NCBI RefSeq assembly: GCF_004339595.1
Contig: NZ_SMFU01000010.1
Coordinates: 124,001 to 188,000, forward strand
Direction of reading: 5' to 3'
DNA length: 64,000 nt
From: Marinobacterium mangrovicola
Lineage (GTDB): Bacteria; Pseudomonadota; Gammaproteobacteria; Pseudomonadales; Balneatricaceae
The notes under the pieces: generated by a model
Database searches by the model: none
Told to the model about the DNA's origin: nothing
Seen by the model: only the letters and a program-made list of their open reading frames with translations
Part shown: piece after piece, positions 34,882 through 61,755 of the stretch
How positions within the stretch are numbered: the stretch's first letter is position 1
How the letters are laid out: each line of letters starts with the position of its first letter
Made by a program: the position numbers and the translations under genes

Positions 34882-35268
34882 TCAGTGACTGATCATCCAG
34901 GGTCGCATGGAGGGAAACATTTTGCTGCCATCGGCGGTGTAGAACAGCTTGATCTTACGCTCGCTGCCGTTACTGCAGCCGCAGCTTGAGCTGTGACGAT
35001 GCCGGTGTGCGGCCCGTTCCTTCTTCTCCGCTTCCTGTTCCCGGTACTGGGCCGGTGTCAGAAACTGCGGCTCATGCTGAGCTTTCTCGTTGCGCTCCAT
35101 CGCCTCCTTCTTCTCTTTCAACATCGCCAGCATCTGTGGTGGCAGGGTAATTACCCGGGCGGACTGAGTGCCGCACTGCGGGCAGGCACAGGGTTTGTCG
35201 TGCTCCGCCATGGTTGCCAGCTCCTGGAACACACCATGGTCGGGACATTTGTATTCATATAACGGCAT
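34882..35268 (-). CDS. fmdB: FmdB-family zinc ribbon protein
   Basis: This 128-residue protein starts MPLYEYKCPDHG and has CACPQCG, the zinc ribbon of the FmdB family, then a charged helix with many Glu/Lys and a C-terminal tail with a second Cys/His-rich part (HRHRHSSSCGCSNG). FmdB was proposed as a regulator of formamidase expression in Methylophilus, but its action is unproven. Here it is the last gene of the urt-ami-fmd operon, 15 bp after fmdA. Confidence 0.85.
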   Translation of the reverse strand: MPLYEYKCPDHGVFQELATMAEHDKPCACPQCGTQSARVITLPPQMLAMLKEKKEAMERNEKAQHEPQFLTPAQYREQEAEKKERAAHRHRHSSSCGCSNGSERKIKLFYTADGSKMFPSMRPWMISH

Positions 35269-35283: not shown

Positions 35284-36516
35284 TCAATCCAGATCCGGCG
35301 CCAGCGGGATATCGACGCTGCCATCAAGCTGCTTGGTCGGACCCTCGCTGTTGGGTTTGACATTGAAGTCGAAGATATCGGTGGGGAGCCACAGGGTTGC
35401 GCAGGAGTTGGGGATATCCACCACGCCGCTGATATGACCCTGAACTGGCGCACAACCGAGAATGGCGTAACCCTGAGCCGGTGAGTAACCGAATTTGCTA
35501 AGGTAATTGATAGCGTTCAGGCAGGCCTGCTTGTATGCCAGGCTGGTGTCGAGGTAGTGCTGTTTGCCCTCGTCATCCACCGAGATACCTTCGAAGATCA
35601 GGTAGTCGTCATATTTCGGTACCATTGGGCTCGGCTTGAAGATCGGGTTTTTGATGGCGTACTTCGACATGCCGTCCTTGATCAGGTTGACGCGCATATG
35701 GATCCAGCCCGCCATTTCGATGGCACCGCAGAAGGTGATTTCGCCATCGCCCTGGCTGAAGTGAAGGTCGCCCACGGAAAGGCCCGCGCCGTCTACGTAA
35801 ACGGGGAAGTAGACCTTGGCACCGCGGGTCAGGTCCTTGATATCGCAGTTACCGCCGTGTTCACGCGGCGGCACGGTGCGGGCGCCTTCGGCCGCTGCCG
35901 TATCGCGGTCATCACCTTTCATACGTCCCATATGTGCGGTACCTGCGAACGGCAGGCAGGCCAGCGCAGGCTCGCGTTCCGGGTTGGTGTCGAAGAGTTC
36001 TTTTTCACGGCTGTTCCACTTATCCAGCATATCGCGCGAAGGCAGGCAGCCGATCAGGCCTGGATGCAGGATGCCGGCGAACTCAACGCCCGGTACATGA
36101 CGGGATTTGGTGAACATGCCGTTGAAATCCCAGATCGACTTCTGTGCCTGCGGGAATTCGTCGGTGAGGAAACCGCCGCCGTTTTTCTTGGCGAAGAAGC
36201 CATTAAAGCCCCACTGCATTTCGTCGAAGGCGCCGATATCGAGAATATCCACCTCCAGCAGGTCACCCGGCTCCGCCCCTTCGACGGCAATAGGACCGGA
36301 CAGGAAGTGCACCTGGGTCAGGTCCACATCACGGATATCTTCGGCGCTGTCATCGTTTTTGATCTGGCCGCCGGTCCAGTCGAAGCACTCGACGATGAAG
36401 TCGTCACCTGGCTTGACCGTTGCCACCATCGGAATGTCCGGGTGCCAGCGGTTATGCACGTTGTCGTGCTCGTAGGCGGATTTGTTCAGATCGATCTTGA
36501 TGATGGTATCGGTCAT
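35284..36516 (-). CDS. fmdA: Formamidase (FmdA/AmdA acetamidase-formamidase family)
   Basis: This 410-residue protein fits the FmdA/AmdA family in length and motifs: HNRWHPDIPMVATVKPGD near the start, GPIAVEGAEPGDLLEVDI, PGLIGCLPS, TVPPREHGGNCDIKDLTRG and HFSQGDGEITFCGAIE. It hydrolyses formamide to formate and ammonia. The zinc-type active site is different from that of AmiE, so the operon holds two unrelated amidases. Its ATG overlaps the end of amiB by 4 nt. Confidence 0.94.
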   Translation of the reverse strand: MTDTIIKIDLNKSAYEHDNVHNRWHPDIPMVATVKPGDDFIVECFDWTGGQIKNDDSAEDIRDVDLTQVHFLSGPIAVEGAEPGDLLEVDILDIGAFDEMQWGFNGFFAKKNGGGFLTDEFPQAQKSIWDFNGMFTKSRHVPGVEFAGILHPGLIGCLPSRDMLDKWNSREKELFDTNPEREPALACLPFAGTAHMGRMKGDDRDTAAAEGARTVPPREHGGNCDIKDLTRGAKVYFPVYVDGAGLSVGDLHFSQGDGEITFCGAIEMAGWIHMRVNLIKDGMSKYAIKNPIFKPSPMVPKYDDYLIFEGISVDDEGKQHYLDTSLAYKQACLNAINYLSKFGYSPAQGYAILGCAPVQGHISGVVDIPNSCATLWLPTDIFDFNVKPNSEGPTKQLDGSVDIPLAPDLD

Positions 36517-37802
36517 GGTTTCATCTCCTGTCCTGCCCTCTCCGGGCTCGGCTCGGTTTGTGAAGGATTGTTTTCTGAAGAAAGGTTTTCTGACGAATGG
36601 TTTTGGGAAGAAACGTGGTGCGAAAAGTGCCGTTGTGAATGTTGCTCATCTGGCCTCTGCTCTGATCGCAGAGTTGCCGGGTCGTGCTGCTTCGGGGGTT
36701 GCTGTGGTTCCCGGCTGCTCGCGGAAACCGGACTGAAATGGATGAGATCGCCGCGGACCTGGCCGCGGAACAGGCTGGTTCTTGCTTGAGTGCCAGTGGC
36801 GGGTGGGTTGGCAAGCAAAGCACTGGCCAGTGGCAGAACCACCAGTTCACGAAAACTGCGCCGGATAGAACGCGCGCCAAACTCCGGATCGAATCCCTTG
36901 GCCCGCAGCAATGCCACCGCAGCGGGATCGAGCTGTGCTTCGACGCCCTTGCGTTTCAGCGTGCGGTTGGTGCGCTCCAGCTCCAGCGTGATGATGGTCT
37001 CGAGGTGTTCGGTGGTGAGCGGCTCAAACAGCTCGATACGGTCGATACGATTGAGAAACTCGGGATCGAAGCGTTCATGCAGCGCATCTTCGATCAGTGC
37101 TGCGCGTGAGTGATGCACCGGTTTCAGGTGGTTCTTCAATCGTTTGATCCAGGGGCCGCGGGCTTCCCGCTGAAGGTCGACCCAGGCACGGGAGCCCACG
37201 TTGCTGGTCATAAAGATCAGGCTGTTGCTGAAATCCAGTTCTCGATTGCCCGAGGCCAGTTTCAGCTTGCCGGCATCGAGAATGTTCATCAGCGCCCGCG
37301 CCACATCGTTGCTGGCCTTTTCGATCTCATCGAACAGAACTATCCCTGGGCGGCCATAACTGCCGGCGATCAAGTCCTCATTGAACAGAGTGACACCCTC
37401 CTTGCTGCCCACGTACCCCGGCGGTGCCCCGGTAATGGCCGCGCTGTAGTGGCTTTGCGAGAGGGTGTTCATATCGATGCGGCAGAAGCTGTCTGGCGAG
37501 CCGTGAATGGCGTTGGCCAGCAGGCGCACGATCTCGGTTTTACCGACGCCGGTATCGCCGATAAACAGCGTGACGTAGAGCGGCCGGCCCGGTTCGCAGA
37601 TATCCGCCTTGACCACCCGTAGCTGGGCGCCAAGCGCCTCGATCACCGGCCGCTGACCGGCGATCTTGCGCTTGAGCAGATCGACCACCGCGTCAGGGTT
37701 GAAGGTGAAGCGCGACTTGTAACCGCTGGCCGAGGCGGGCAGGGGCGAGCCCTGTTCCAAGCCACGCTGGTTCTGGTCGAGCCTGTCGTTGATAAACGGC
37801 AT
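36513..37802 (-). CDS. amiB: AmiB-like ClpA/B-type AAA+ ATPase
   Basis: This 429-residue protein has one AAA+ module of the ClpA/ClpB D2 type: Walker A FIGDTGVGKTEIV (about 79-91), Walker B GIVLFDEIEKA, the pore-loop-like region APPGYVGSKEG, and the arginine finger area RFDPEFLNRID, then the C-terminal small domain with GFDPEFGARSIRR. It lacks the Clp N-domain and the D1 ATPase. A hydrophilic tail of about 75 residues, rich in Ser, Gln, Glu, His and Pro with Ser-Ser-x-Asn repeats, follows. It sits directly after amiE, as AmiB does in the Pseudomonas amiEBCRS operon. Its job there is unclear; it may be a chaperone for the amidases or the transporter. Confidence 0.85.
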   Translation of the reverse strand: MPFINDRLDQNQRGLEQGSPLPASASGYKSRFTFNPDAVVDLLKRKIAGQRPVIEALGAQLRVVKADICEPGRPLYVTLFIGDTGVGKTEIVRLLANAIHGSPDSFCRIDMNTLSQSHYSAAITGAPPGYVGSKEGVTLFNEDLIAGSYGRPGIVLFDEIEKASNDVARALMNILDAGKLKLASGNRELDFSNSLIFMTSNVGSRAWVDLQREARGPWIKRLKNHLKPVHHSRAALIEDALHERFDPEFLNRIDRIELFEPLTTEHLETIITLELERTNRTLKRKGVEAQLDPAAVALLRAKGFDPEFGARSIRRSFRELVVLPLASALLANPPATGTQARTSLFRGQVRGDLIHFSPVSASSREPQQPPKQHDPATLRSEQRPDEQHSQRHFSHHVSSQNHSSENLSSENNPSQTEPSPERAGQEMKP

Positions 37803-37829: not shown

Positions 37830-38873
37830 TTAGCCCGCTTCCTTCTCCTGCTCGGCCATCGGCAGACCGCCGACGGGACACTCCGCCACGCCGATGGTGT
37901 CGCGGGTCATCGCCTCGACCTCTGCCTGGGTTTTCTCCGCGTCCATGACCCAGGAGCGGTAGAACTCGAACGGGCAGTCCGCCACGCCCTTGTCGCCGTC
38001 GCCGGAGTTATAGACGCCGGTGTAGCCGCGATGCAGCAGCTTGAAGAGGTGGTTCTGGGACTGGTCGTTCTTGCGCGCGTCGCGGATCTCGGTGAGCGAG
38101 AGCTGGGCGTACTGGATTCCCATCTCTTCCTCGCCACACTCGCCGAGGGTGCGGCCGTCAAAGCCGACGATGGCGGAGTGACCGAAGTAGGAATACACGC
38201 CATCAAAGCCGGCGGCGTTGGCCACCGCCACGTAGGTGTTGTTGGCCCAGGCCATGGTCTTGGCCATCATCACCTGCTGCTCCTTGGCCGGGTACATATA
38301 GCCCTGGCAGCGTACGATCAGCTCGGCACCGCGCATGGCGCAGTCTCGCCAGATCTCCGGATAGTTACCGTCGTCGCAGATGATCAGGCTGAGTTTCAGT
38401 CCCTTTGGACCTTCGGAGACGTAGGTGCGATCACCGGGATACCAGCCCTCGATCGGGCACCAGGGCAGGCACTTGCGGTACTTCTGCACGATCTCACCCT
38501 GGTCATTGATCAGTATCAGGGTGTTATAGGGCGCCTTGTTGGGGTGTTCCTCATGCTGTTCGCCGGTGAGTGAGAATACGCCCCAGGTTTTTGCCTGGCG
38601 GCAGGCCTCGGAGAAGATTGCCGTTTCTTCGCCCGGAATCGTGGTGGCGGTGGCCATCATCTCGCCCTTGTCGTACATGATTCCCATGGTGCTGTACTCG
38701 GGGAACACGATCAGGTCCATGCCGGGCAGGCCCTGCTTGATGCCGGTGATCATGTCTGCAATCTGGCGGGCATTGGCCAGCACGTCGTCCTTGGTGTGCA
38801 GGCGCGGCATCTTGTAGTTGACCACCGCGACGCCGACGGTATCGGCACTGCTGGAAATATCACCGTGTCTCAT
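37830..38873 (-). CDS. amiE: Aliphatic amidase
   Basis: This 347-residue nitrilase-superfamily enzyme converts short aliphatic amides such as acetamide and propionamide to acid plus ammonia. It starts [21 protein letters not shown], nearly the same as Pseudomonas AmiE in sequence and length. The Glu-Lys-Cys triad is visible: Glu in VFPEYSTMG (near 59), Lys in KYRKCLPW (near 134), Cys in [10 protein letters not shown] (near 166). It is downstream of the urt-type ABC genes and 27 bp before amiB. Confidence 0.97.
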
Positions 38874-38898: not shown

Positions 38899-39588
38899 TT
38901 AAACGGACAGATAGCGGGTGATCGTGGCCTCGTCGGCTTCGGCCACCGGTACGTCGTGAACGATGTTGCCCTTCTCGATCACCAGGATGCGGTCGGCCAC
39001 ATCGAGGGCGAAGCTGAGCACCTGCTCGGAGACCAGAATCGCCAGGCCATGCTCGTCGCGGATTTTGCGCAGGGTGCGCGCCATCTCGCGGATGATGGAG
39101 GGCTGAATCCCCTCGGTGGGCTCGTCGAGCAGTAAGAGCTTGGGGTTGCTGGCCAGGGCGCGGGCGATGGCCAGCTGTTGCTGCTGACCGCCGGAGAGGT
39201 TGCCGCCACGGCGGTGTTTCATCTCCTTGAGCACCGGGAACAGGGTGTAGAGATGCTCAGGGATGGTGCTGCTGCCGGTGGTGGTGAGACCGGTGCGGAT
39301 GTTCTCCTCCACGGTCATGGTGGAGAAGATCATTCGCCCCTGGGGCACAAAGCCGACCCCGGCGGAGACGCGCTGATAGCTTTTCAGGCCGGCCAGTTCT
39401 GTTTCGTCTAGCCTGGCCGAACCGCCGCTGGAGGGGATCATACCGATCAGCGATTTCATCAGCGTGGTCTTGCCCATGCCGTTGCGGCCAAGGATGGCGA
39501 TGATCTCGTTCTTGCCCAACTCCAGGTTCATGCCGTTGATAACGCGGCTCTGGCCGTAGGCGACGTCGTAATTGGATACATTGAGCAT
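38899..39588 (-). CDS. urtE: Urea/short-chain amide ABC transporter ATPase 2 (UrtE type)
   Basis: This 229-residue ABC ATPase of the LivF/UrtE group has LGRNGMGKTTLMKSLIG as Walker A (near 34-50), the Q-loop AGVGFVPQGRMIFS, signature LSGGQQQQLAIARAL and Walker B LLLLDEPTEGIQPS. It pairs with UrtD to power the importer. GGAG-type ribosome sites precede each gene here. Because the downstream genes are amidases rather than urease, the natural substrate may be amides as in the FmdDEF system. Confidence 0.92.
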   Translation of the reverse strand: MLNVSNYDVAYGQSRVINGMNLELGKNEIIAILGRNGMGKTTLMKSLIGMIPSSGGSARLDETELAGLKSYQRVSAGVGFVPQGRMIFSTMTVEENIRTGLTTTGSSTIPEHLYTLFPVLKEMKHRRGGNLSGGQQQQLAIARALASNPKLLLLDEPTEGIQPSIIREMARTLRKIRDEHGLAILVSEQVLSFALDVADRILVIEKGNIVHDVPVAEADEATITRYLSV

Positions 39589-39613: not shown

Positions 39614-40372
39614 TTAGTGACCGAGGTAGACTTCGACGACCTTCGGGTCGCTCTTCACGCGCTCCAGCGAGCCTTCGGACAGCAGCTGTCCCTGGTGCAG
39701 AACGGTGACTCGGTGAGCAATGTCCTCGACAAACTGCATGTCGTGCTCGATCACCAGCACCGAGCGGTCCTGGGTGATGCGGTTGAGCAGCTCGGCGGTT
39801 TTCTTGCGCTCTGCCACCGACATCCCCGCCACCGGTTCATCCAGCATCAGCAAGGCCGGGTCCTGGATCAGCAGCATGCCGATCTCCAGCCACTGCTTCT
39901 GGCCATGGCTGAGCAGGTCGGCGCGCTGGTGCAGAAGGTCCGAGAGGAAAATCATTTCGGCGATCTCGGTGACCTTGTCGATCACCTCCGCATTGCGGCG
40001 GAAGGTGAGGGCACCGAACACGCTGTGACCGCGGGGGAAGGAGAGCTCCAGGTTCTCGAATACCGTCAGGTCCTCGTAGATCGACGGGTTCTGAAACTTG
40101 CGGCCGACGCCGGCGTGGACGATCTGGTGCTCCTTCATCTTGGTCAGTTCCTGGTTACGGAACTTGATGGAGCCTTCGGTGGCCTTGGTGCGGCCGCAGA
40201 TCAGGTCGAGCACCGTGGTCTTGCCGGCCCCGTTGGGGCCGATGATGACGCGGATCTCACCTTCATCGACGTAGAACGACAGGTCGTTCACCGCCTTGAA
40301 GCCATCGAAAGAGACCGTCAGTCCTTCGACGGCGAGAACAAAATCCTGCGGGTTGTTGTGGGACAGGCTCAT
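39614..40372 (-). CDS. urtD: Urea/short-chain amide ABC transporter ATPase 1 (UrtD type)
   Basis: This 252-residue LivG/UrtD-type ATPase has Walker A GPNGAGKTTVLDLI, GRKFQNPSIYEDLTVFENL as the typical Q-loop to helical region, signature LLSHGQKQWLEIGM (SHGQ is usual for UrtD) and Walker B LLMLDEPVAGMS. The ATG at 40372 is preceded by AAGGAGACGATC; the frame stays open far upstream but inside urtC. The SHGQKQWLEI variant of the signature separates UrtD from LivG. Confidence 0.93.
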   Translation of the reverse strand: MSLSHNNPQDFVLAVEGLTVSFDGFKAVNDLSFYVDEGEIRVIIGPNGAGKTTVLDLICGRTKATEGSIKFRNQELTKMKEHQIVHAGVGRKFQNPSIYEDLTVFENLELSFPRGHSVFGALTFRRNAEVIDKVTEIAEMIFLSDLLHQRADLLSHGQKQWLEIGMLLIQDPALLMLDEPVAGMSVAERKKTAELLNRITQDRSVLVIEHDMQFVEDIAHRVTVLHQGQLLSEGSLERVKSDPKVVEVYLGH

Positions 40373-40382
40373 GATCGTCTCC

Positions 40383-41558
40383 TTAAGACTGGCTCGGTGC
40401 GGTAACGCCGCTGCTGGAATCGACCTGCTCTTTTTCTGCAGCCGGTGCAGAAGTGCGATTGGCAGGAGCAGAAGAGTGCGCGCGACGCTGTTTGAACTTA
40501 TCCACAAGCAGGGTGTAAAGACCGGCCAGACCGTTCGGGAAGGCCAGCACCACGCCGATGAACAGAGCACCCATGGCGAACAGCCAGAGTTCCGGGAAGG
40601 CTTCGGACATGGTGGTCTTGGCGGCGTTGACCAGCAGTGCGCCGTAAACCGCGCCGATGATCGACAGACGACCGCCGAGGGCACAGAAGATCACCATCTC
40701 GATGGAGGGCACGATGCCGACCAGGGTGGGCGACATGAAGCCCACCTGCAGCGTGAACATGGCGCCGCCGATGGCGGACAGCATGGCCGCGAAGCAGAAC
40801 ACGAAAATCTTGAAGTTGGAGACGTCGTAGCCGGAGAAGCGCACCCGGTCTTCACGGTCACGGATTGCGACCAGCAGGCGGCCCAGCTTGCTCTTCAGCA
40901 CCAGGTGAGCCATCAGCAGGCAGAGGAACAGCATGGCCACGCCGAAGAAGTAGAGCACGTACTTGGCGGAGTCGCTGCGGATATCCCAGCCCATCAGCGT
41001 GCGCAGGTCGGTGATGCCGTTAACGCCACCGGTGTAACCCTGCTGACCGATGATCAGGATGGTCAGGATCGCGGCGATCGCTTGGGTGATGATGGCGAAG
41101 TAGACCCCGCCCACCCGGCGCTTGAACATCGCCGTGGCGACCACGAAGGCGAACAGCGGCGCCACAAAAAGTATCGCCAGCACGGTGAAGCCCAGCGAGT
41201 TGAACGGCTCCCAGAACCAGGGCAGGGCGGTGAGCTGGTTCCAGTCCATAAAGTCGGGAATACCCGGGGTGGACTGGATAGCCGTTGCCTCGGGGGATGA
41301 GGCCTCCAGCTTCAGGAACATCGCCATGGCGTAGCCGCCGATACCGAAGAAGATACCCTGCCCCAGGCTCAGGATGCCGCCGTAACCCCAGCAGAGCACC
41401 AGGCCGATGGCGGCAAAGGCGTAAGAGAGATACTTACCCACCAGATTGAGGCGGAAAATATCAAGCGTCAGTGGCAGGACCACCAGCAACAGCAGTGCCA
41501 GCAGCCCGTAGTTGATCAGATCCTGACGTTTGAACAGATTACTTTTCATAACATTCAT
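40383..41558 (-). CDS. urtC: Urea/short-chain amide ABC transporter permease 2 (UrtC type)
   Basis: This 391-residue membrane protein of the LivM/UrtC family has about ten hydrophobic segments, with GLVLCWGYGGILSLGQGIFFGIGGYAM split across helices 2-3 and the EAA-like loop RDREDRVRFSGYDVSNFK. GGYAMAMFLKLE is typical for UrtC. A polar tail of about 30 residues (SSAPANRTSAPAAEKEQVD) ends the protein. GGAGGAAATCACG precedes the ATG. Confidence 0.92.
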   Translation of the reverse strand: MNVMKSNLFKRQDLINYGLLALLLLVVLPLTLDIFRLNLVGKYLSYAFAAIGLVLCWGYGGILSLGQGIFFGIGGYAMAMFLKLEASSPEATAIQSTPGIPDFMDWNQLTALPWFWEPFNSLGFTVLAILFVAPLFAFVVATAMFKRRVGGVYFAIITQAIAAILTILIIGQQGYTGGVNGITDLRTLMGWDIRSDSAKYVLYFFGVAMLFLCLLMAHLVLKSKLGRLLVAIRDREDRVRFSGYDVSNFKIFVFCFAAMLSAIGGAMFTLQVGFMSPTLVGIVPSIEMVIFCALGGRLSIIGAVYGALLVNAAKTTMSEAFPELWLFAMGALFIGVVLAFPNGLAGLYTLLVDKFKQRRAHSSAPANRTSAPAAEKEQVDSSSGVTAPSQS

Positions 41559-41581: not shown

Positions 41582-42508
41582 TCAGCGTCGAATCTTCAGT
41601 GAGAACAGACCCTGGGGGCGCAGCATCAGGATGCCTACCACCACCAGCAGCGTGAGTACCTTGGCCATGGAACCGCTGAGGAAGAACTCCATCGTTGACT
41701 GGGCCTGGGAGATGGTGAACGCGGATGCAATGGTGCCGAGCAGACTGGCTGCGCCGCCGAAGACCACCACCAGGAAGGTATCGACGATATAAAGCTGGCC
41801 GGATGTAGGCCCGGTGGAGCCGATCATGGTGAAAGCGCTACCTGCGACGCCGGCGATACCGCAGCCCAGTGCAAAGGTGGCGCGGTCAACTCTCTCTGTA
41901 TTAATCCCGACGGCACCGGCCATGGGACGGTTCTGTACTACGGCACGTACCTGACCACCCCAGTTGGAGCGATACATCAGGTAGTAAACGCCAGCCGCAA
42001 TCAGCAGGGTCAGAATCATCACGAACAGGCCATTGATCGGAACTTCGATCATGTCGGTGATGGCGACGGAACCCATCAGCCAGTCGGGGAGGCTGACACC
42101 GACTTCACGAGCGCCGAAGATGGAGCGGTAGCACTGCTGCAGGATCAGGCTCAAACCCCAGGTGGCAAGCAGTGTGTCCAGCGGGCGGTGGTAGAGTCGC
42201 CTTATCAATGCCCATTCGACAAAGGCGCCCAGGGCTCCGGCGGCAAGAAAGGCGACCATCATCGCCACGATAAAGTAGGCCCCATAGAGTCCTGGCATCA
42301 GACTCTCGAAAACATGGGAGGTGAGATAGGTCATGTAGGCGCCGAGGATCATGAACTCCCCGTGTGCCATGTTGATAACGCCCATCTGGCCGAAAATGAT
42401 TGCCAGACCCAGCGCCATTAATACGAATATGGAGAACAGACTCAGGCCTGCGAAGCCTTGCATGGCGAAGATCGCCACGAGTTCAGAAGAGGAGTAATCA
42501 GCAAACAT
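41582..42508 (-). CDS. urtB: Urea/short-chain amide ABC transporter permease 1 (UrtB type)
   Basis: This 308-residue permease of the LivH/UrtB group has eight or nine hydrophobic segments, with MGVINMAHGEFMILGAYMTY and WGLSLILQQCYRSIFG, which are UrtB hallmarks. Many UrtB proteins carry a long periplasmic N-terminal extension (total over 500 residues); this one has only the core, closer to FmdE/LivH. It lies 24 bp before urtC and 87 bp after urtA. Confidence 0.92.
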   Translation of the reverse strand: MFADYSSSELVAIFAMQGFAGLSLFSIFVLMALGLAIIFGQMGVINMAHGEFMILGAYMTYLTSHVFESLMPGLYGAYFIVAMMVAFLAAGALGAFVEWALIRRLYHRPLDTLLATWGLSLILQQCYRSIFGAREVGVSLPDWLMGSVAITDMIEVPINGLFVMILTLLIAAGVYYLMYRSNWGGQVRAVVQNRPMAGAVGINTERVDRATFALGCGIAGVAGSAFTMIGSTGPTSGQLYIVDTFLVVVFGGAASLLGTIASAFTISQAQSTMEFFLSGSMAKVLTLLVVVGILMLRPQGLFSLKIRR

Positions 42509-42595: not shown

Positions 42596-43855
42596 TTACT
42601 GATAACCTTCCGGGAAGGGGTTCGGTTCGATCAGATCGGAGCTTTCGTAGACAACCTCGTACTGGCCGTCGGTATGCGCCTTGCCGATTCGGGTCTTGGA
42701 CCAGAGGTGATGGTTCTCATGGATACGCACATAACCTTCAGGCGCTGTGGTCAGCTCAATGCCCGGTGATGCCGCGCGCACTTTGTCGATATCGAAGGAG
42801 CCGGCTTTCTCGACAGCGGCTTTCCACAGCCAGGGGCCGAGGTAGGCGGCCTGGGTAACGTCACCGATAACGATGTCGTCGCCATACTTCTCTTTGAATG
42901 CTTTAACGAACGCCTGGTTGTTATCGTTCGGCAGGCTCTGGAAGTACTTCATGGAAGCGTAGATACCGTCGATGTTTTCACCGCCGATACCCAGGATTTC
43001 ATCCTCGGTGACGGAAATGGTCACGAACAGCGGCTTCTCCTGGGTCATGTCGATACCGGCAGCCTTGAGCTGCTTGTAGAAGGCCACGTTGGAGCCGCCC
43101 ACCACGGAGATGAACACAACATCAGGCTTACGCAGCTTGATCTTGTTGATGACAGAGTTGAACTGGGTGTGGCCCAGTGGGTAGTACTCTTCGCCCAGTA
43201 CTTTCGCGCCCAGCTTGTTTTCGATGTGCTTGCGCGCAATCTTGTTGGAGGTACGTGGCCAGATGTAGTCGGAGCCCAGCAGGTAGAAGGTTTTCGCGCC
43301 CTTCTCGCGGGATGCCCAGTCCAGGCCCTCAAGGATCTGCTGCGTGGCTTCCTGGCCGGTGTAGATCACGTTCGGAGACTCTTCGAGGCCCTCGTAGAAG
43401 GTCGGGTAGTAGAGCATGCCGTTGTACTGCTCAAACACCGGCAATACCGCTTTGCGTGAAGCAGAAGTCCAGCAACCGAACACGGCAGCAACCTTGTCGT
43501 TCACCAGCAGCTTGCGGGATTTTTCGGCGAAAGTCGGCCAGTCGCTGGCGCCGTCTTCCTGGATGTATTCGATCTGCCGACCGAGTACACCACCCATGGC
43601 GTTGATCTGGTCGATGGCCAGTTTCTCCGCCTGCACGGAACCGGTTTCACTGATCGCCATGGTGCCGGTGATCGAATGAAGGATGCCGACTTTGACCGTG
43701 TCTTCGGTGACTGCAAGACCGGTGGTATTCACCTCTTCAGCGCTGGCGATACTGGCATTGCCGAGTACAACGGCGGCCTGGAGCGCGAGGAATCCTTTCA
43801 ACAGCCGCCGGCGTAGCGGCGAGTGGGTAGTCGCTTTCTTATCACGCATTCGCAT
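42596..43855 (-). CDS. urtA: Urea/short-chain amide ABC transporter substrate-binding protein (UrtA type)
   Basis: This 419-residue binding protein has an Arg-rich signal (SPLRRRLLKGFLALQAAVVLG) that may use either Tat or Sec, with cleavage near ASA-EE. The mature part begins with DTVKVGILHSITGTMAISE, and has GCWTSASRKAVLPVFE and YYPTFYEGLEESPNVIYTG, the UrtA/FmdD-type pocket. The ATG at 43855 follows AGGAGAAACACC. First gene of the nine-gene operon; the 303-bp gap to the divergent sensor gene should hold the promoters of both. Confidence 0.93.
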   Translation of the reverse strand: MRMRDKKATTHSPLRRRLLKGFLALQAAVVLGNASIASAEEVNTTGLAVTEDTVKVGILHSITGTMAISETGSVQAEKLAIDQINAMGGVLGRQIEYIQEDGASDWPTFAEKSRKLLVNDKVAAVFGCWTSASRKAVLPVFEQYNGMLYYPTFYEGLEESPNVIYTGQEATQQILEGLDWASREKGAKTFYLLGSDYIWPRTSNKIARKHIENKLGAKVLGEEYYPLGHTQFNSVINKIKLRKPDVVFISVVGGSNVAFYKQLKAAGIDMTQEKPLFVTISVTEDEILGIGGENIDGIYASMKYFQSLPNDNNQAFVKAFKEKYGDDIVIGDVTQAAYLGPWLWKAAVEKAGSFDIDKVRAASPGIELTTAPEGYVRIHENHHLWSKTRIGKAHTDGQYEVVYESSDLIEPNPFPEGYQ

Positions 43856-44158
43856 GGTGTTTCTCCTGAGTTGTGGACCGGGCATTTCGGTGCTTCGTGT
43901 TGAAAGCCAGTATCGGGAACGACTCGGGAGAGGAACATTCGGCAAATGCTCCAAGCGGCATACGTCATTTACCCCATGGTTAAAAAACGTCGGGGAGGTG
44001 ACACTCGCGGGTACGTTAGTTGCACACGTTCCTAATCCCTGGAAACGGGGCCGTACGTCCATTGCACAGAGAGTGCACAGTGAGTGAATGTTCACCGGCG
44101 GGGCAGTAGTTGGACGGAAGGTGTGCCTTGTCGGTGCGAAAAGTGAGCGTGCATTGAA
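43856..44158. other. Divergent control region between urtA and the sensor kinase gene
   Basis: No gene is evident in these 303 bp. It contains the 15-bp inverted repeat at 44063-44077 and several TGCAC/GTGCA half-sites (44036, 44147). No clean sigma-54 -24/-12 pair or sigma-70 promoter was found. The response regulator of this locus is the most likely binder. Confidence 0.4.
44063..44077. promoter_or_regulatory. TGCAC-N5-GTGCA inverted repeat, candidate operator
   Basis: TGCAC (44063-44067), AGAGA, GTGCA (44073-44077) lies about 210 bp from the urtA start and 80 bp from the sensor start. NtrC sites have the same arms with a 7-bp centre, so the spacing here is two short; it may instead be the site of the LuxR-type regulator encoded at 47508. 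Confidence 0.35.
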
Positions 44159-47100
44159 ATGACGACACCGCAGCAACAGGTTTTCAGGGTCAGGCGCAAA
44201 TACAACCAGTGGGTGGCTAACCAGACGCTGGAGGATTATTCCCTGCGTTTTACCGCCAAGGCGGCGCGACGCTGGTCCCTCGGCAGGGTGGCCAATACCG
44301 CCCTGGGCGGTATCTCCTTCCTAGCGCTGGAGGCGATCGGCGGGGCTATTACGCTCAGTTACGGCTTCGAGCATACCTTGGCGGCAACCCTGCTGGTAAC
44401 ACTGGTGATTCTTCTCACTGCGATACCGATCACTTACTACGCGGCGCGCTACGGTGTGGATATCGATCTGCTGACCCGGGGGGCCGGTTTTGGTTATATC
44501 GGCTCTACCGTCACCTCGCTGATCTACGCCTCATTCACCTTTATCTTCCTGGCTCTGGAAGCGGCGATCATGGCTAAGGCACTGGAGTTGATGTTCTCGG
44601 TGCCTCTCTCCATTGGTTATTTCTTCAGCGCATTTATGGTGATTCCGGTAGTGATATACGGATTTACCTTTATCAGTCGGTTTCAGATGTTTAGCCAGCC
44701 GCTGTGGGTAGCATTGCAGATTCTGCCTTTGGCCTGCGTGCTGATCTATAGCGAGGGTTCCATCGATGGTTGGCTGGGCTATCAAGGCCACAAGGAACAG
44801 AGCGAAGAGTTCGATTTTCTGCTGATGGGCGCAGCGTCCACGGTGGTGATGTCACTGCTGGCTCAGATCGGTGAGCAGGTGGATTACCTGCGTTTTCTAC
44901 CGGAAAAAGGTTCCCATAACCGCTTCCGTTGGTGGAGTGCGCTGCTGCTGGCGGGGCCTGGCTGGATCATTATGGGCGCGATCAAGATCCTGATCGGCTC
45001 TTTTCTGGCGGTGCTGGTGCTGCAAACCGGGGGCTTGATCAGCGATGCGGCAGAACCGACGCAGATGTATATGACCGCCTTTGAACACGTGACAGCTTCG
45101 CCTGAACTGGCGCTGGCGCTGACCGGCCTGTTCGTGATTCTTTCCCAGGTGAAGATTAATGTGACCAACGCCTATGCGGGGTCACTGGCCTGGTCTAACT
45201 TTTTCTCCCGACTAACCCATATTCACCCCGGCCGCGTGGTCTGGTTGGTATTCAACGTGGTTATCGCCTGGCTGCTTATGGAGCTGGGGATTTACGAAGC
45301 GTTTGAGTCGATCCTGGGGATATTCTCCATTCTTGTGGTGGCCTGGGTCGGTTCTCTGGTGGCCGATCTGGTGATCAACAAGCCGCTGGGTATAAGTCCG
45401 AGGGGGATAGAATTCAAACGCGCTCACCTCTATGACATCAACCCGGTGGGCGTTGGCTCCATGGCGATCTCGTCACTGATAGGGGTTGTCTGCATGCTCG
45501 GTATCTGCGGTCCCGAGCTGAAGGCGTTCGCACCTTTCGTGGCCTTGGCCGCGACCTTTGTGCTGGTGCCGCTGATCGCTCTGGCCACCAGAAGCCGTTA
45601 CTACATCGCTCGCGAGCCGCTGCCCGCCTGCGGTACCCAATGTTCGATCTGCGAACATCATTTCGAGCCCGAGGATATGACCGTGTGCCCGCTCTACGGC
45701 GGTAATATCTGTTCGCTCTGTTGCTCTCTCGATGCGCGCTGCAATGACGCCTGCAAGCAGAACAGCACTTTTTCTCACCAGATCTCCTCGGTACTCAGGG
45801 CGATACTGCCGACGGCGCTGATGGGCAAGGTCAACTCCCGTTTGGGTCACTTTATCGGTCTGATGCTGGTGTTCGATACCATCGTGGGTGCTTTTCTCTC
45901 GTTGATCTATTTCCAGATGCAGGGGCCGTCTCCCGGGGAGACCGAGCTTGTCGGTCTGGTGCTCTGGAAGGTGTTCTTTCTGCTGCAGATTGTCATCGGT
46001 GTCGCGGCCTGGTTGTTTTTGCTGGCCCATGAGAGCCGCGTGCTGGCGCAGGATGAAAGCGCCCAGCAGACCGAGCGGCTGATGGCGGAGATCCGCGCCC
46101 ATGAGTTGACCGACCAGGAGTTGCAGGAAGCCAAGGAGATGGCGGAGGCCGCAAGCCTCGCCAAGAGTCGTTACCTCACCGGTATCAGCCATGAGCTGCG
46201 GACACCGCTGAATGCGGTGCTTGGATACGCGCAATTACTTGATGTGGCTACTGATATTCCTACCCACCGGCGTCCGGCTATAAATGTCATCAAGCGCAGT
46301 AGTGAACATCTGGCGAACCTGATTGAAGAGCTACTTGATATATCCCGCATTGAAGCTGGGCGTCTCGAACTTTATCGCAACGAGGTGGCGCTGATCAGCT
46401 TCATGGAGCAGATCGTCTATATGTTCCGGCTGCAGGCTGAGGCCAAGGGAATCAACTTCAGCTATACCCGGCAGCAGCGGGTGCCGGAGTTCGTCTCGAC
46501 CGACGAAAAAAGATTGCGGCAGATACTGATCAACCTACTCTCCAACGCGATCAAGTTTACCGATAAGGGCAGCGTATCGCTGACGCTGACCTACCGTAGC
46601 GAGGTGGCGGAGTTTGTCATCAGCGATACCGGAGTGGGCATTGCCGAAGAGGACATTGAGCGCATCTACAAACCGTTCGAGCGGCTGGAGGCCTCAGGAA
46701 CCCATCAGCCGGGTACGGGACTGGGGCTGACTATAACCAAGCTACTTACCGATATCATGGGCGGCGATCTGCAGGTGGAAAGCATACCCGGGCGCGGCAC
46801 CACATTCCGACTCACGTTGATGATGACCAGCCTGACCAAGCCGGTGCAGATACCGGTCAGCCAGATCTGGTTGGGTGGATATCTAGGGGAGCGGAAAAGC
46901 GTGATGATCGTGGATGACGATGCCACTCACCGCGATCTGATCCGCGATATTCTCCAGCCGGTGGGCTTCAACGTGATTACCGCCCAAGATGGGGATAACT
47001 GCATCGAACTCTGCGAACAGGATCTGCCGGACCTGTTCATCCTTGATGTTTCCATGCCTGGCATGAATGGCTGGGAGTTGCTGCATAAGCTGCGTGAGGG

Positions 47101-47539
47101 CGGTGCCGATGTGCCGGTGATTATGCTTTCGGCCGATGCCAGGGAGTGGGTACAGCTATCCGATGTACATCCGTTCGATGCCTATCTCGTCAAGCCGGTA
47201 CGGGTGGCCGAGTTGCTGGAGCAGATCGGCAAATTGCTGCACCTGGAGTGGGAAAAACAGGCGCAATGCCTAGAACGCGACGAGCAGGTGGGTAGTGAGC
47301 GCTTGCCGGTTGTGAATATCGGCCAGCTTAAGCGTTACGTCGAAATCGGATATCTCGAGGGTATTAAAAGCGAGGTGGAGCGCATCGCTCAGGAGGCCTC
47401 GCTCTCAAATCAGGAAACAGAGGCGCTGCGGGCGATGGTGAACTCCTTCAATTTTGCAGGAGTGATCGATCGGTTGATGACGCTCACCAGTCTTTATGGA
47501 CAGTGTAATGAATGCCAAAGCCAAAGTACTTGTAGTTGA
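44159..47539 (+). CDS. Hybrid sensor histidine kinase with NCS1 transporter-like input domain and Cys-rich segment
   Basis: This 1126-residue protein has, in order: an NCS1 (cytosine/purine permease-type) domain with about 12 helices (about 40-485); a segment with nine cysteines (about 491-530, CGTQCSIC, CPLYGGNICSLCC, RCNDAC); two more helices (about 555-635); a coiled coil; HisKA with GISHELRTPLN (His678); HATPase with NLLSNAIKF, DTGVGI and GTGLGL; a receiver with VDDDATHRD and phospho-acceptor Asp963 (LDVSMPGM); and a C-terminal region of about 85 residues ending in CNECQSQSTC. It is the NCS1 counterpart of the symporter-kinases CbrA and CrbS. Placed divergently from the amide/urea importer operon, it probably senses an amide, urea or nucleobase-like compound. 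Its stop overlaps the regulator gene. Confidence 0.88.
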   Translation: MTTPQQQVFRVRRKYNQWVANQTLEDYSLRFTAKAARRWSLGRVANTALGGISFLALEAIGGAITLSYGFEHTLAATLLVTLVILLTAIPITYYAARYGVDIDLLTRGAGFGYIGSTVTSLIYASFTFIFLALEAAIMAKALELMFSVPLSIGYFFSAFMVIPVVIYGFTFISRFQMFSQPLWVALQILPLACVLIYSEGSIDGWLGYQGHKEQSEEFDFLLMGAASTVVMSLLAQIGEQVDYLRFLPEKGSHNRFRWWSALLLAGPGWIIMGAIKILIGSFLAVLVLQTGGLISDAAEPTQMYMTAFEHVTASPELALALTGLFVILSQVKINVTNAYAGSLAWSNFFSRLTHIHPGRVVWLVFNVVIAWLLMELGIYEAFESILGIFSILVVAWVGSLVADLVINKPLGISPRGIEFKRAHLYDINPVGVGSMAISSLIGVVCMLGICGPELKAFAPFVALAATFVLVPLIALATRSRYYIAREPLPACGTQCSICEHHFEPEDMTVCPLYGGNICSLCCSLDARCNDACKQNSTFSHQISSVLRAILPTALMGKVNSRLGHFIGLMLVFDTIVGAFLSLIYFQMQGPSPGETELVGLVLWKVFFLLQIVIGVAAWLFLLAHESRVLAQDESAQQTERLMAEIRAHELTDQELQEAKEMAEAASLAKSRYLTGISHELRTPLNAVLGYAQLLDVATDIPTHRRPAINVIKRSSEHLANLIEELLDISRIEAGRLELYRNEVALISFMEQIVYMFRLQAEAKGINFSYTRQQRVPEFVSTDEKRLRQILINLLSNAIKFTDKGSVSLTLTYRSEVAEFVISDTGVGIAEEDIERIYKPFERLEASGTHQPGTGLGLTITKLLTDIMGGDLQVESIPGRGTTFRLTLMMTSLTKPVQIPVSQIWLGGYLGERKSVMIVDDDATHRDLIRDILQPVGFNVITAQDGDNCIELCEQDLPDLFILDVSMPGMNGWELLHKLREGGADVPVIMLSADAREWVQLSDVHPFDAYLVKPVRVAELLEQIGKLLHLEWEKQAQCLERDEQVGSERLPVVNIGQLKRYVEIGYLEGIKSEVERIAQEASLSNQETEALRAMVNSFNFAGVIDRLMTLTSLYGQCNECQSQSTCS

Positions 47540-48401
47540 TGACTCGCCAGAGGCGATCAGCATGCTCAATGAGTTGCTGTGCCAGCAGAACTTTCACGTC
47601 TTCGTGGCACTGAACGGTGAGCAGGCGATCGGTATTGCCGAGCAGATACAACCGGATGTGATCCTTCTCGATGCGATGATGCCGGGTATGTCCGGGTTCG
47701 ACGTGTGCAAGCGTTTGAAGTCTATGCCTGCCTTGATGCAGGTACCGGTGATCTTTATGACCGGGCTGAGCGAGACCGAAGATATCGTCAAGGCGTTTGA
47801 AGTGGGTGGAATCGATTACATAACCAAGCCGATCCGGCATGAGGAGCTGCTGGTGCGGATGAAGGCGCACCTGGATAACGCCAAACGTGCCGCCAGCGCC
47901 CATGAAGTGATGGATGGCCATGGGTTGATGACACTATGCCTGCGCAGCGATGGCCAGATTGAATGGGCCACGCCCCAGGTATATAAACTGTTCCCCGAGA
48001 CGGCGGCAGCGGCCATCGCAGAAGGGCTGCTGGAGTCTGTGGCGGATGCCCGTGTCGGTGGGCCGGCTTCGGTGGTTACCTTGGGTGATGACAGCGTCAC
48101 CTGTCACCTGATCGATGATGACGGGCTGGGACGTTACCTATTTAAGATCGACGATCCGCGTCAGCCCAACGATCAGGAAAAACTGGTGGAAAGGTTCCAA
48201 CTGACCGAACGCGAGGCCGAGGTGCTGATGTGGATCGTGCACGGCAAGACCAACAAGGAGATCGCCCTGATCCTGGATCTGAGCCCGCGAACCATCAACA
48301 AACACTTGGAACAGATCTTCCGCAAGCTGGGGGTAGAAAACCGTACCTCGGCAGCCTTCGCGGCACTGGAGTGCATACGTCAGCGCTGGGAGCTGTGTTG
48401 A
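47508..48401 (+). CDS. Response regulator with receiver and LuxR-type HTH
   Basis: This 297-residue regulator has a receiver domain (about 5-120) with VVDDSPEA, the phospho-acceptor in ILLDAMMPGM and the Lys in YITKPI. A middle region of about 95 residues resembles no known domain, and a LuxR HTH (about 225-290) holds LTEREAEVLMWIVHGKTNKEIA and LSPRTINKHLEQIFRKLGV. The ATG at 47508 is favoured by GGA 7 nt upstream; another in-frame ATG is at 47496. It overlaps the sensor kinase gene by 32 bp, so it is its cognate partner. Expected to control the divergent urtA operon. Confidence 0.9.
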   Translation: MNAKAKVLVVDDSPEAISMLNELLCQQNFHVFVALNGEQAIGIAEQIQPDVILLDAMMPGMSGFDVCKRLKSMPALMQVPVIFMTGLSETEDIVKAFEVGGIDYITKPIRHEELLVRMKAHLDNAKRAASAHEVMDGHGLMTLCLRSDGQIEWATPQVYKLFPETAAAAIAEGLLESVADARVGGPASVVTLGDDSVTCHLIDDDGLGRYLFKIDDPRQPNDQEKLVERFQLTEREAEVLMWIVHGKTNKEIALILDLSPRTINKHLEQIFRKLGVENRTSAAFAALECIRQRWELC

Positions 48402-61002: not shown

Positions 61003-61755
61003 TCAGGAAAGGTAGTAACCGGTGAGCTGGTAGCCGGTGAGCATCAGCCCCAGGCTGATCAGCGCGGTATTGGCGGTCAGGGCAAAGCGGGGAAAACCGG
61101 GCAGTCGCCGCCATTGCGTCACCAGCGTCAGGATCAGGAAAAGCGCAGCCAGCTGGCCCAGTTCGACGCCCAGGTTAAACGCCATCAGGTTAGCCAGCGT
61201 ACCTTCGTCGCGGTTGATCAGTTGCTGCAGTTTGGTGGCCAGGCCGAAACCGTGGAACAGGCCGAAGATCAGCACGGCGATACGGGTATCCGGCTGATTG
61301 CCGAGCAGGCGTTTGAAACCGCCGAGGTTATCAAAGCCCTTATAGACCACTGAAAGGCCGATGATGGCATCGATCAGCCAGGGATTCAGGTTGATCTCAT
61401 ACAGGGTCCCATAGATCAGCGTGAGGCTGTGGCCAAGGGTAAACAGACTGACGTAAAGCAGAATCTCGCGGGGGCGGAACAGAAAGAAGATCACGCCGGT
61501 CAGGAACAGAAGGTGATCGTACCCGGTGATCATATGTTTGGCGCCGATATAGATAAATGGCAGGATCGCTTGGCCCGTCTGATCGCTGAGAAAGGCTTTG
61601 GAGCTCTCATCCACGCCGTGGGCGTAAATGCCTGTGCTTACCGCTGTCAAAACCAGCAATGTCGCCCACGCAAATACTCGGCTTGATATCAGCCTTGGTG
61701 CGGGATGGGGTGTGCACCCTGCGGCAGGTTTTGGATGGAGAAGAGAATCGAGCAT
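61003..61755 (-). CDS. HupE/UreJ-family membrane protein
   Basis: This 250-residue protein has a signal-like first helix (about 26-45), then about six helices. YIGAKHMITGYDHLLFLTGVIF with its His-x6-Asp-His pattern, and LFTLGHSLTLIYGTL and FGLFHGFGLA, are hallmarks of the HupE/UreJ_2 family. Some members import nickel for hydrogenase or urease, but no such enzyme is encoded in this window, so the transported ion is unknown. It is the first gene of a two-gene operon. Confidence 0.82.
   Translation of the reverse strand: MLDSLLHPKPAAGCTPHPAPRLISSRVFAWATLLVLTAVSTGIYAHGVDESSKAFLSDQTGQAILPFIYIGAKHMITGYDHLLFLTGVIFFLFRPREILLYVSLFTLGHSLTLIYGTLYEINLNPWLIDAIIGLSVVYKGFDNLGGFKRLLGNQPDTRIAVLIFGLFHGFGLATKLQQLINRDEGTLANLMAFNLGVELGQLAALFLILTLVTQWRRLPGFPRFALTANTALISLGLMLTGYQLTGYYLS

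Follow-up and report, generated by a model that had tools for sequence, protein, structure and literature searches.

A hybrid sensor kinase with a distant NCS1-type input domain and a Cys8 module, linked to urea and amide genes in Marinobacterium mangrovicola and other Pseudomonadota

Sensor kinases of the SLC5/STAC type such as CbrA, CrbS and RpuS consist of a carrier domain fused via a linking domain to a histidine kinase and act on genes for nutrient uptake (for CbrA, the excerpted text of PMC13022988). An Amt-type ammonium sensor kinase from Kuenenia also uses a membrane carrier domain as histidine kinase input, according to excerpts of PMC5764959. Here we describe a hybrid sensor kinase of Marinobacterium mangrovicola, encoded together with a LuxR-type response regulator in a stretch of 64,000 nucleotides (nt) of contig NZ_SMFU01000010.1 (the window; coordinates refer to it unless another locus is named). 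As far as the excerpts describe the CbrA group, our kinase shares with it the order of carrier, linker and histidine kinase as well as an output of nutrient-uptake genes. It differs in that the carrier is of SSF type there and matches NCS1 here, that the linker of CbrA is a STAC four-helix bundle (PMC13022988, same excerpts) whereas a cysteine-rich module (Cys8) and a membrane hairpin take this place in our kinase, and that its outputs are urea and amide genes. A Pfam scan gave no PF00474 (SSF) match for the kinase gene. The protein is predicted to work like the CbrA-type transceptors; it is not a member of their family, because the SLC5 (SSF) test fails. With the Kuenenia kinase, as excerpted, it has the carrier-domain input and a nitrogen source in common, the carrier families being unrelated as judged by name.

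In the open-licence PMC literature, available as excerpts, no paper came up that deals with an NCS1-fused kinase or that studies a regulator at these urt-fmd loci. A genome paper (PMC13296017) lists, in its excerpted part, a hybrid kinase and a LuxR regulator beside urtABCDE without further study, urea genes of Azoarcus are induced during nitrogen fixation according to excerpts of PMC8467165, and the excerpts of PMC12918730 and PMC8399564 do not concern the NCS1-Cys8 kinase. Our analysis supports a real and conserved kinase and sharpens the sensor function proposed in a first-pass annotation of this DNA to a distant-NCS1, Cys8-linked kinase with a defined operator on urea and amide genes. We consider it probable that the protein is a transceptor, a sensor kinase fused to a transporter domain, and that urea or a small amide is detected by its NCS1-type membrane domain. 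What the computation supports is that this domain is distantly related to NCS1 and the Cys8 module invariant, together with the kinase and its regulator, the genes around them and the operator.

The kinase, its domains and the partner regulator are arranged as follows (aa, amino acids; HTH, helix-turn-helix):
44159–47539 (+): hybrid sensor kinase, 1126 aa, with NCS1-like domain, Cys8 module, two-helix hairpin, HisKA, HATPase and receiver
44276–45613 (+): distant NCS1-type 12-helix domain, residues 40–485 (hhalign)
45629–45757 (+): Cys8 module, residues 491–533 (Cys conservation)
45851–46027 (+): extra membrane hairpin, residues 565–623 (hydropathy)
46160–46360 (+): HisKA with His678, residues 668–734 (Pfam)
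46499–46822 (+): HATPase_c, residues 781–888 (Pfam)
46901–47227 (+): receiver domain (Response_reg) with Asp963, residues 915–1023 (Pfam)
47496–48401 (+): response regulator, 301 aa, receiver (REC, Asp59) plus LuxR-type HTH with recognition helix RTINKH

With HisKA, HATPase_c and a receiver at the places assigned to them before, and with His678 and Asp963 as the expected phospho-acceptor residues, the 1126-aa protein is a hybrid histidine kinase. Hydropathy also reproduces the roughly twelve-helix domain and the two further helices of the first-pass annotation, giving 12 helices between residues 48 and 475 and two more at 565–583 and 605–623. The Cys cluster sits in the loop 476–564 between helix 12 and the hairpin, which should face the cytosol because the N-terminus of the kinase is rich in Lys/Arg. 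An overlap with a receiver-LuxR gene had been read as well and amounts to 44 nt; the regulator carries Response_reg (11–121) and GerE (235–288) and is of NarL/FixJ type. Partner regulators of Pseudomonas and Stutzerimonas (L125, L127, L129, L130, L132, L133) are shorter, with 219–235 aa, and are devoid of the middle REC-HTH segment of the 301-aa protein.

Direct family searches did not reveal the origin of the input domain. Residues 1–660 gave no Pfam match even at E ≤ 10, none of 49 members of the kinase family matched PF02133 (Transp_cyt_pur) at E ≤ 1, the best 25 of 156 NCBIfam matches all fall in the kinase part and none in the input domain, and PDB sequence searches with the input domain, the family profile and the Cys profile yielded nothing convincing. 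A search of the M. mangrovicola genome for NCS1 found four other places and missed the kinase gene. Among stand-alone homologues of 440–500 aa, 3 of 6 tested match PF02133, one of them above the cut-off, and the stand-alone relative L185 matches TIGR00800 at 2.5e-16, below the family cut-off. Using hhalign, the input domain scored 96.5% against the four NCS1 proteins of its own genome (E 8e-10, 412 columns) and 99.5% against the stand-alone homologue set, compared with 0.1–0.2% for the controls (SSF, NCS2, reversed), the SSF control being three SSF (SLC5) proteins of the same genome (0.1%). Because intermediates bridge the gap and the profile–profile match comes with clean controls, we regard the input domain as a distant NCS1 relative; the NCS1 input proposed earlier is thus retained as a distant relation and not as a match to the Pfam family.

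In the combined alignment E134 of the kinase falls in the column of Mhp1 Gln121, F130 in that of Trp117 and N337 in that of Asn318, which we take to be substrate residues, and K332 and I333 occupy the columns of Ser312 and Thr313, presumably the sodium site. The kinase therefore shares with Mhp1 and other NCS1 carriers the overall fold by profile and the Asn318 column, but it has Glu, Phe and Lys/Ile in place of the other residues and is fused to a histidine kinase. Most Mhp1-type sodium and substrate residues are replaced in it, Asn318 alone being retained; not all NCS1 carriers keep these residues. The predicted pocket residues E134, K332 and N337 are invariant in all 125 kinases analyzed, and the 11 stand-alone relatives in the combined alignment have Glu at the E134 column and Lys or Arg at the K332 column. 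Since a basic residue occupies the Mhp1 sodium-site column, the alignment suggests that the input domain is not sodium-coupled, and it may no longer be an active transporter.

As for the stand-alone relatives, the NCS1-domain relative at L185 8949–13984 (+) adjoins a carbon-nitrogen hydrolase, a UrtA-like protein and an AmiR/ANTAR protein and is a possible amide permease, and L057, L059 and L060 adjoin hydantoinase/oxoprolinase, biotin-carboxylase/carboxyltransferase and cyclase genes; the neighbourhoods of the remaining ones were judged by eye. Elsewhere in the M. mangrovicola genome a weak SSF match (G000:C2:213660-214883, minus strand) lies within a 1342-aa open frame, possibly an SLC5-type sensor kinase.

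Nine Cys are found between residues 491 and 532 of the kinase. Eight of them (495, 498, 510, 518, 521, 522, 528 and 532) occur without exception in the aligned kinases (33/33) and in alignment A2 (49/49), whose 49 rows were chosen independently of Cys, and C491 is not conserved; of the nine Cys annotated before, eight are thus conserved. These two sets are the free tests, as the set of 125 kinases was selected by the Cys pattern and invariance there is circular. The spacing C-x2-C-x11-C-x7-C-x2-C-C-x5-C-x3-C is kept in 110 proteins matching a looser pattern. Searching an even phylum sample of 398 genomes with the Cys-module profile gave 58 strong places (E ≤ 1e-18), all in frames matched by the NCS1 profile, and 7 other, weak matches (E 0.002–0.01) in short frames; among these genomes strong matches to the module thus occur only in NCS1-input kinases. 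Comparison with Pfam and PDB sequences gave no significant match for the module, the best being Prok-RING_1-like (E 0.36 in 1 of 12) and F-box (0.012 in 1 of 12). Most likely the Cys8 module is a structural zinc-binding coupling domain. A kinase-like protein of genome G377 was matched weakly, by the module-plus-hairpin part of the profile, and has part of the Cys pattern without an NCS1 match. At L192 6857–8713 (+) a 618-aa kinase-like protein, also without an NCS1 match, has part of the Cys pattern and the hairpin and is located beside a regulator of the partner-regulator family.

To describe the gene context we compiled 133 loci (WIN, L025–L056, L065–L144, L185–L204), 125 of which gave a kinase for the phylogenetic tree. 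Excluded were L185, L192, L193 and L194, which are not NCS1-Cys8 hybrid kinases, and L066, L126, L135 and L136, which are cut short or contain stops; L026/L065, L027/L071 and L037/L144 are duplicate genomes, and G235 is apparently the same genome as G487. By their neighbours 81 loci are of amide type (fmdA, amiE or a close urtA; 8 of these labels come from urtA similarity alone) and 36 of urea type (a more distant urtA, or urease; 8 of these labels are our own assignment), together 117 of 125. Eight loci carry neither label: at the stretch edge of L033 and L044 there is a urtA with a perfect operator, L075, L103, L112 and L115 are close to the end of a contig, and in L110 and L120 no amide or urea gene appears within about 20 kb. 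Urease adjacency was rejected as a general feature, ureC being found by motif in 9 of 131 loci.

On the kinase tree (quick tree, midpoint root) the amide/urea label changes 10 times, 6 to 8 of the changes being forced by well-supported branches. Because of these 10 changes the kinase system appears to have moved repeatedly between amide and urea genes while its predicted pocket remained the same. Residue columns that might tell amide from urea loci were searched as well, and none separates all seven urea groups. Two loci, L186 7499–10156 (-) and L187 6663–9347 (-), have the NCS1-Cys8 input on a kinase without receiver, followed by a separate REC-kinase and with fmdA/fmdB close by; here the output half was probably exchanged and the amide link kept. 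The genome of M. mangrovicola encodes a second kinase of the family (L040 7674–11063, minus strand, on G000:C6) beside a urea-type urtABCDE with a perfect operator (L240, 15951), and two paralogous kinase systems, one amide-type and one urea-type, are therefore present in one cell.

Divergently from the window's kinase gene we identified the following genes (ORF, open reading frame):
42596–43855 (-): urtA (TIGR03407, 551.9 bits, cut-off 492.75; start set at 43855 behind AGGAG)
41582–42508 (-): urtB (TIGR03409, 405.2 bits, cut-off 250.3)
40383–41558 (-): urtC (TIGR03408, 432.6 bits, cut-off 296.2)
39614–40684 (-): ORF holding urtD, family match from ORF residue 116 (TIGR03411, 376.6 bits, cut-off 304.1)
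38899–39588 (-): urtE (TIGR03410, 321 bits, cut-off 285.8)
37830–38873 (-): amiE, aliphatic amidase (NF009802, 712.4 bits, cut-off 427)
36513–37802 (-): ClpB-like AAA protein (best match ClpB 1.6e-64, below cut-off)
35284–36516 (-): fmdA, formamidase (NF045496, 762.5 bits, cut-off 500)
34882–35268 (-): fmdB-type zinc ribbon protein (NF053663 and TIGR02605, above cut-off)

Of the urt-amiE-amiB-fmdA cluster described before, urtA to urtE, amiE and fmdA pass the NCBIfam cut-offs, as does fmdB, and the gene then called 'amiB' encodes the ClpB-like AAA protein. This gene between amiE and fmdA adjoins amiE in several relatives too. A HupE/UreJ family protein (PF13795), possibly for metal transport, is encoded at 61003–61755 (-), about 13 kb from the regulator.

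The sampling covered one phylum, the Pseudomonadota. A kinase match was found in 38 of 96 genomes of relatives (E < 1e-100 in 33) and in 56 of the 398 genomes of the phylum sample (E < 1e-100 in 52); kinase-positive means E < 1e-100 in the following, and G377, G264, G283 and G325 were counted as negative. A profile search of genome contigs gave at least 577 relatives; the 80 best ones were retained and include those from Bradyrhizobium, Rhizobium, Pseudomonas, Alcanivorax, Vibrio and Klebsiella. The input domain is also carried by 533 plasmid records, 342 of them from Klebsiella. A copy at least 99% identical to the kinase of K. grimontii is present on 352 plasmid records, 285 of which are predicted to be conjugative. 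On an E. coli plasmid the kinase gene, whose kinase segment matches the one of K. grimontii with 99.9% identity, is annotated as 'ATP-binding protein' and located beside urtABCDE and a formamidase gene, and a Chelatococcus plasmid shows the same neighbourhood; where plasmid copies are annotated, they are called 'ATP-binding protein' or 'hybrid sensor histidine kinase'. For a Klebsiella CG307 plasmid a urea transporter 'UTS' (UrtABC/AmiF) has been reported, with transporter and formamidase named in the excerpts of PMC13060141. By this excerpted description it is the same kind of urt-formamidase set as on the kinase-bearing E. coli plasmid; the term 'histidine kinase' does not occur in the text of PMC13060141.

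A palindrome search without preset sequence in 79 non-redundant upstream regions led to the 16-bp element TACGTCA-NN-TGACGTA, present with ≤2 mismatches in 32 of the 79 regions and in 1 of 790 resampled ones. Across the 133 whole loci (2.43 Mb) we counted 84 such sites, compared with 4 of the reversed pattern. The majority of the 84 are located before urtA, in the sister group even with the kinase some kb away, and 13 loci have a site before fmdA. In whole genomes and with ≤1 mismatch, 14 of 15 chosen genomes show the palindrome, with one or two sites each, compared with 2 of 15 for the reversed pattern. The exact palindrome occurs in 22 of 33 relatives with the kinase and in 1 of 63 without it (p = 1.4e-12). 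Of the 398 genomes sampled from the phylum 10 contain it, and 8 of these are among the 52 kinase-positive ones (p = 1.9e-6; reversed pattern 1/398); most kinase-positive genomes of the wider phylum therefore lack an exact match.

In the kinase-positive relatives every one of the 22 exact sites precedes urtA. For eight of them (G001, G022, G026, G030, G038, G045, G085, G089) the kinase is on a different contig or at a distance above 9 kb; in seven the site is 100–167 bp from the urtA ORF start, and in G026 this start is unsure. In Methyloversatilis (L219) a one-mismatch site far from the kinase precedes an aliphatic amidase gene by about 70 bp. Among the off-locus one-mismatch sites, of which kinase-positive relatives such as G021, G033, G057, G044, G007, G001 and G022 have further ones, those of L219 and L220 were placed. 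Exact sites in the kinase-negative genomes G075, G329 and G430 are not at urt or fmd genes and were set aside as chance. The link to amides and urea suggested earlier is thus strongly supported: 117 of the 125 loci have such genes in their gene context, and one operator recurs at urtA, at fmdA and in a single case at amiE, in places also at a distance from the kinase.

Most partner regulators have the recognition helix RT-x-N-KH, and those of Bradyrhizobium and its kin have RTVDKH. Loci with an Asn-type helix (n = 83) show the main operator with ≤2 mismatches in 58 cases and both operators in 1. With an Asp-type helix (n = 21) the variant TACGCAANATNGCGTA was found with ≤1 mismatch in 16 loci and the main operator in none, and the other 5 are 2–3 mismatches from TACGCAANATNGCGTA; the Bradyrhizobium-type site reads TACGCAAGATYGCGTA. 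The single Thr-type helix (Methylorubrum, L140) goes along with a variant site before the kinase. The operator type thus appears to change together with the recognition helix of the regulator. On the urtA side of the palindrome a second, degenerate box is common to 35 distinct sequences (C at +18 in 94%, A at +21 in 85%, T at +22 in 88%), and near +46 they show an element resembling AATAAT/GATACT (A 82%, T at +50 80%). Such a layout would fit an activator that overlaps the -35 region. Upstream of the kinases a strict sigma-54 promoter pattern was found in 2 of 79 regions and discarded.

The corresponding elements of the window are:
43961–43976 (no strand): operator TACGTCATTTACCCCA, half-degenerate with 4 mismatches to TACGTCANNTGACGTA; position orthologous to that in relatives
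43909–43914 (-): putative -10 element GATACT of urtA, spacing as in relatives

The operator is located 272 bp from a conserved urtA codon, compared with 263–272 bp in L025, L026/L065, L028, L072, L074 and L099, 278 in L095 and 299 in L083. Taken alone the match is not significant, as 47 of 790 control regions reach ≤4 mismatches. The paralogue on C6 has a perfect site before urtABCDE, the sole site with ≤1 mismatch in the genome. Because the window operator is half-lost and the C6 site perfect, control by the kinase-regulator system is better supported for the C6 paralogue than for the window operon.

Several observations weigh against the proposed urea/amide transceptor and its operator. With ≤1 mismatch the palindrome is present in 29 of 33 kinase-positive relatives and also in 11 of 63 kinase-negative ones, and the reversed pattern reaches 40 of 96 genomes (11 of 33 positive, 29 of 63 negative), so that only exact or in-place sites are telling. 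The off-locus one-mismatch site of Methylomicrobium (L220) is at no recognised urea or amide gene, 24 of the 83 Asn-type loci have no clear operator site, and the covariation of helix and operator comes mainly from one clade and one separate lineage, that is, from few independent events. In the window itself the promoter layout is that of the relatives and one base longer, the distal palindrome is half-lost (4 mismatches), and no operator site with ≤3 mismatches is found near urtA or fmdA. A pocket unchanged across amide and urea loci would also fit one common ligand or conservation for another reason.

In the mechanism we propose, a ligand in the NCS1 pocket (E134, N337) would shift the helix arrangement, and the cytosolic Cys8 module and the extra membrane hairpin would relay this shift to the kinase. 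Phosphate might then pass from His678 to Asp963 and/or to Asp59 of the LuxR-type regulator, which would bind TACGTCA-NN-TGACGTA and the proximal degenerate box overlapping the -35 region and activate urtA, often also fmdA. The predicted output is amide uptake and hydrolysis in the window's branch and urea uptake and urease in the sister branch. It could also be that the NCS1 domain binds no solute and senses the activity of the Urt ABC transporter or its loaded binding protein, or merely anchors a kinase whose signal enters elsewhere. The tight linkage of the kinase loci to the Urt genes and the Lys in the sodium-site column would agree with this, but E134, K332 and N337 are invariant in all 125 kinases, beta-proteobacterial loci (L188–L190, L195, L196) have an adjoining urease with no urtA found in the stretch examined, and in several genomes urt operon and kinase are on different contigs; we consider this explanation unlikely.

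Slightly less likely still is a Cys8 module acting as the true sensor for metal, redox or nitric oxide, with NCS1 as passive anchor and the urea and amide genes as output alone. Eight invariant Cys with fixed spacing could be read in this way, yet two Cys quartets would suit a structural zinc fold as well, the pocket residues of the NCS1 domain are just as invariant, and the output consists of nitrogen-substrate genes and not of metal or redox genes. That the kinase senses hydantoins, allantoin or nucleobases like typical NCS1 carriers is very improbable: the family fold and stand-alone relatives next to hydantoinase/oxoprolinase genes (L057) speak for it, but among the clusters listed the recurring neighbours that can be named, with part of the neighbours annotated, are kinase, regulator, urt, fmdA, fmdB and amiE. 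The ureide (allantoin) signal of the first-pass annotation, like hydantoin and nucleobases, thus finds no support in the kinases' own gene context. Beyond the urea/amide transceptor preferred here, we put forward, tentatively and with somewhat less than even confidence, that the proteins form a further class of carrier-derived kinases, in which the NCS1 sodium site would have become an invariant Lys, one invariant pocket would accept the N-C=O group of urea and primary amides, a previously undescribed two-metal Cys8 module would provide the coupling, and one regulator-operator pair would have been reused with repeated amide/urea switches across Pseudomonadota and conjugative plasmids.

In summary the kinase is present in 52 of 398 genomes of the phylum and its input domain in 533 plasmid records, yet this input half matches no Pfam family. 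If the proposed function is true, the kinase and its regulator would represent a urea- or amide-responsive two-component system with a defined 16-bp operator from which a regulon can be predicted at once, and would offer, next to CbrA, a second natural system for studying how a carrier fold drives a kinase. The plasmid-borne cluster for urea uptake in Klebsiella would gain a candidate regulator as well.

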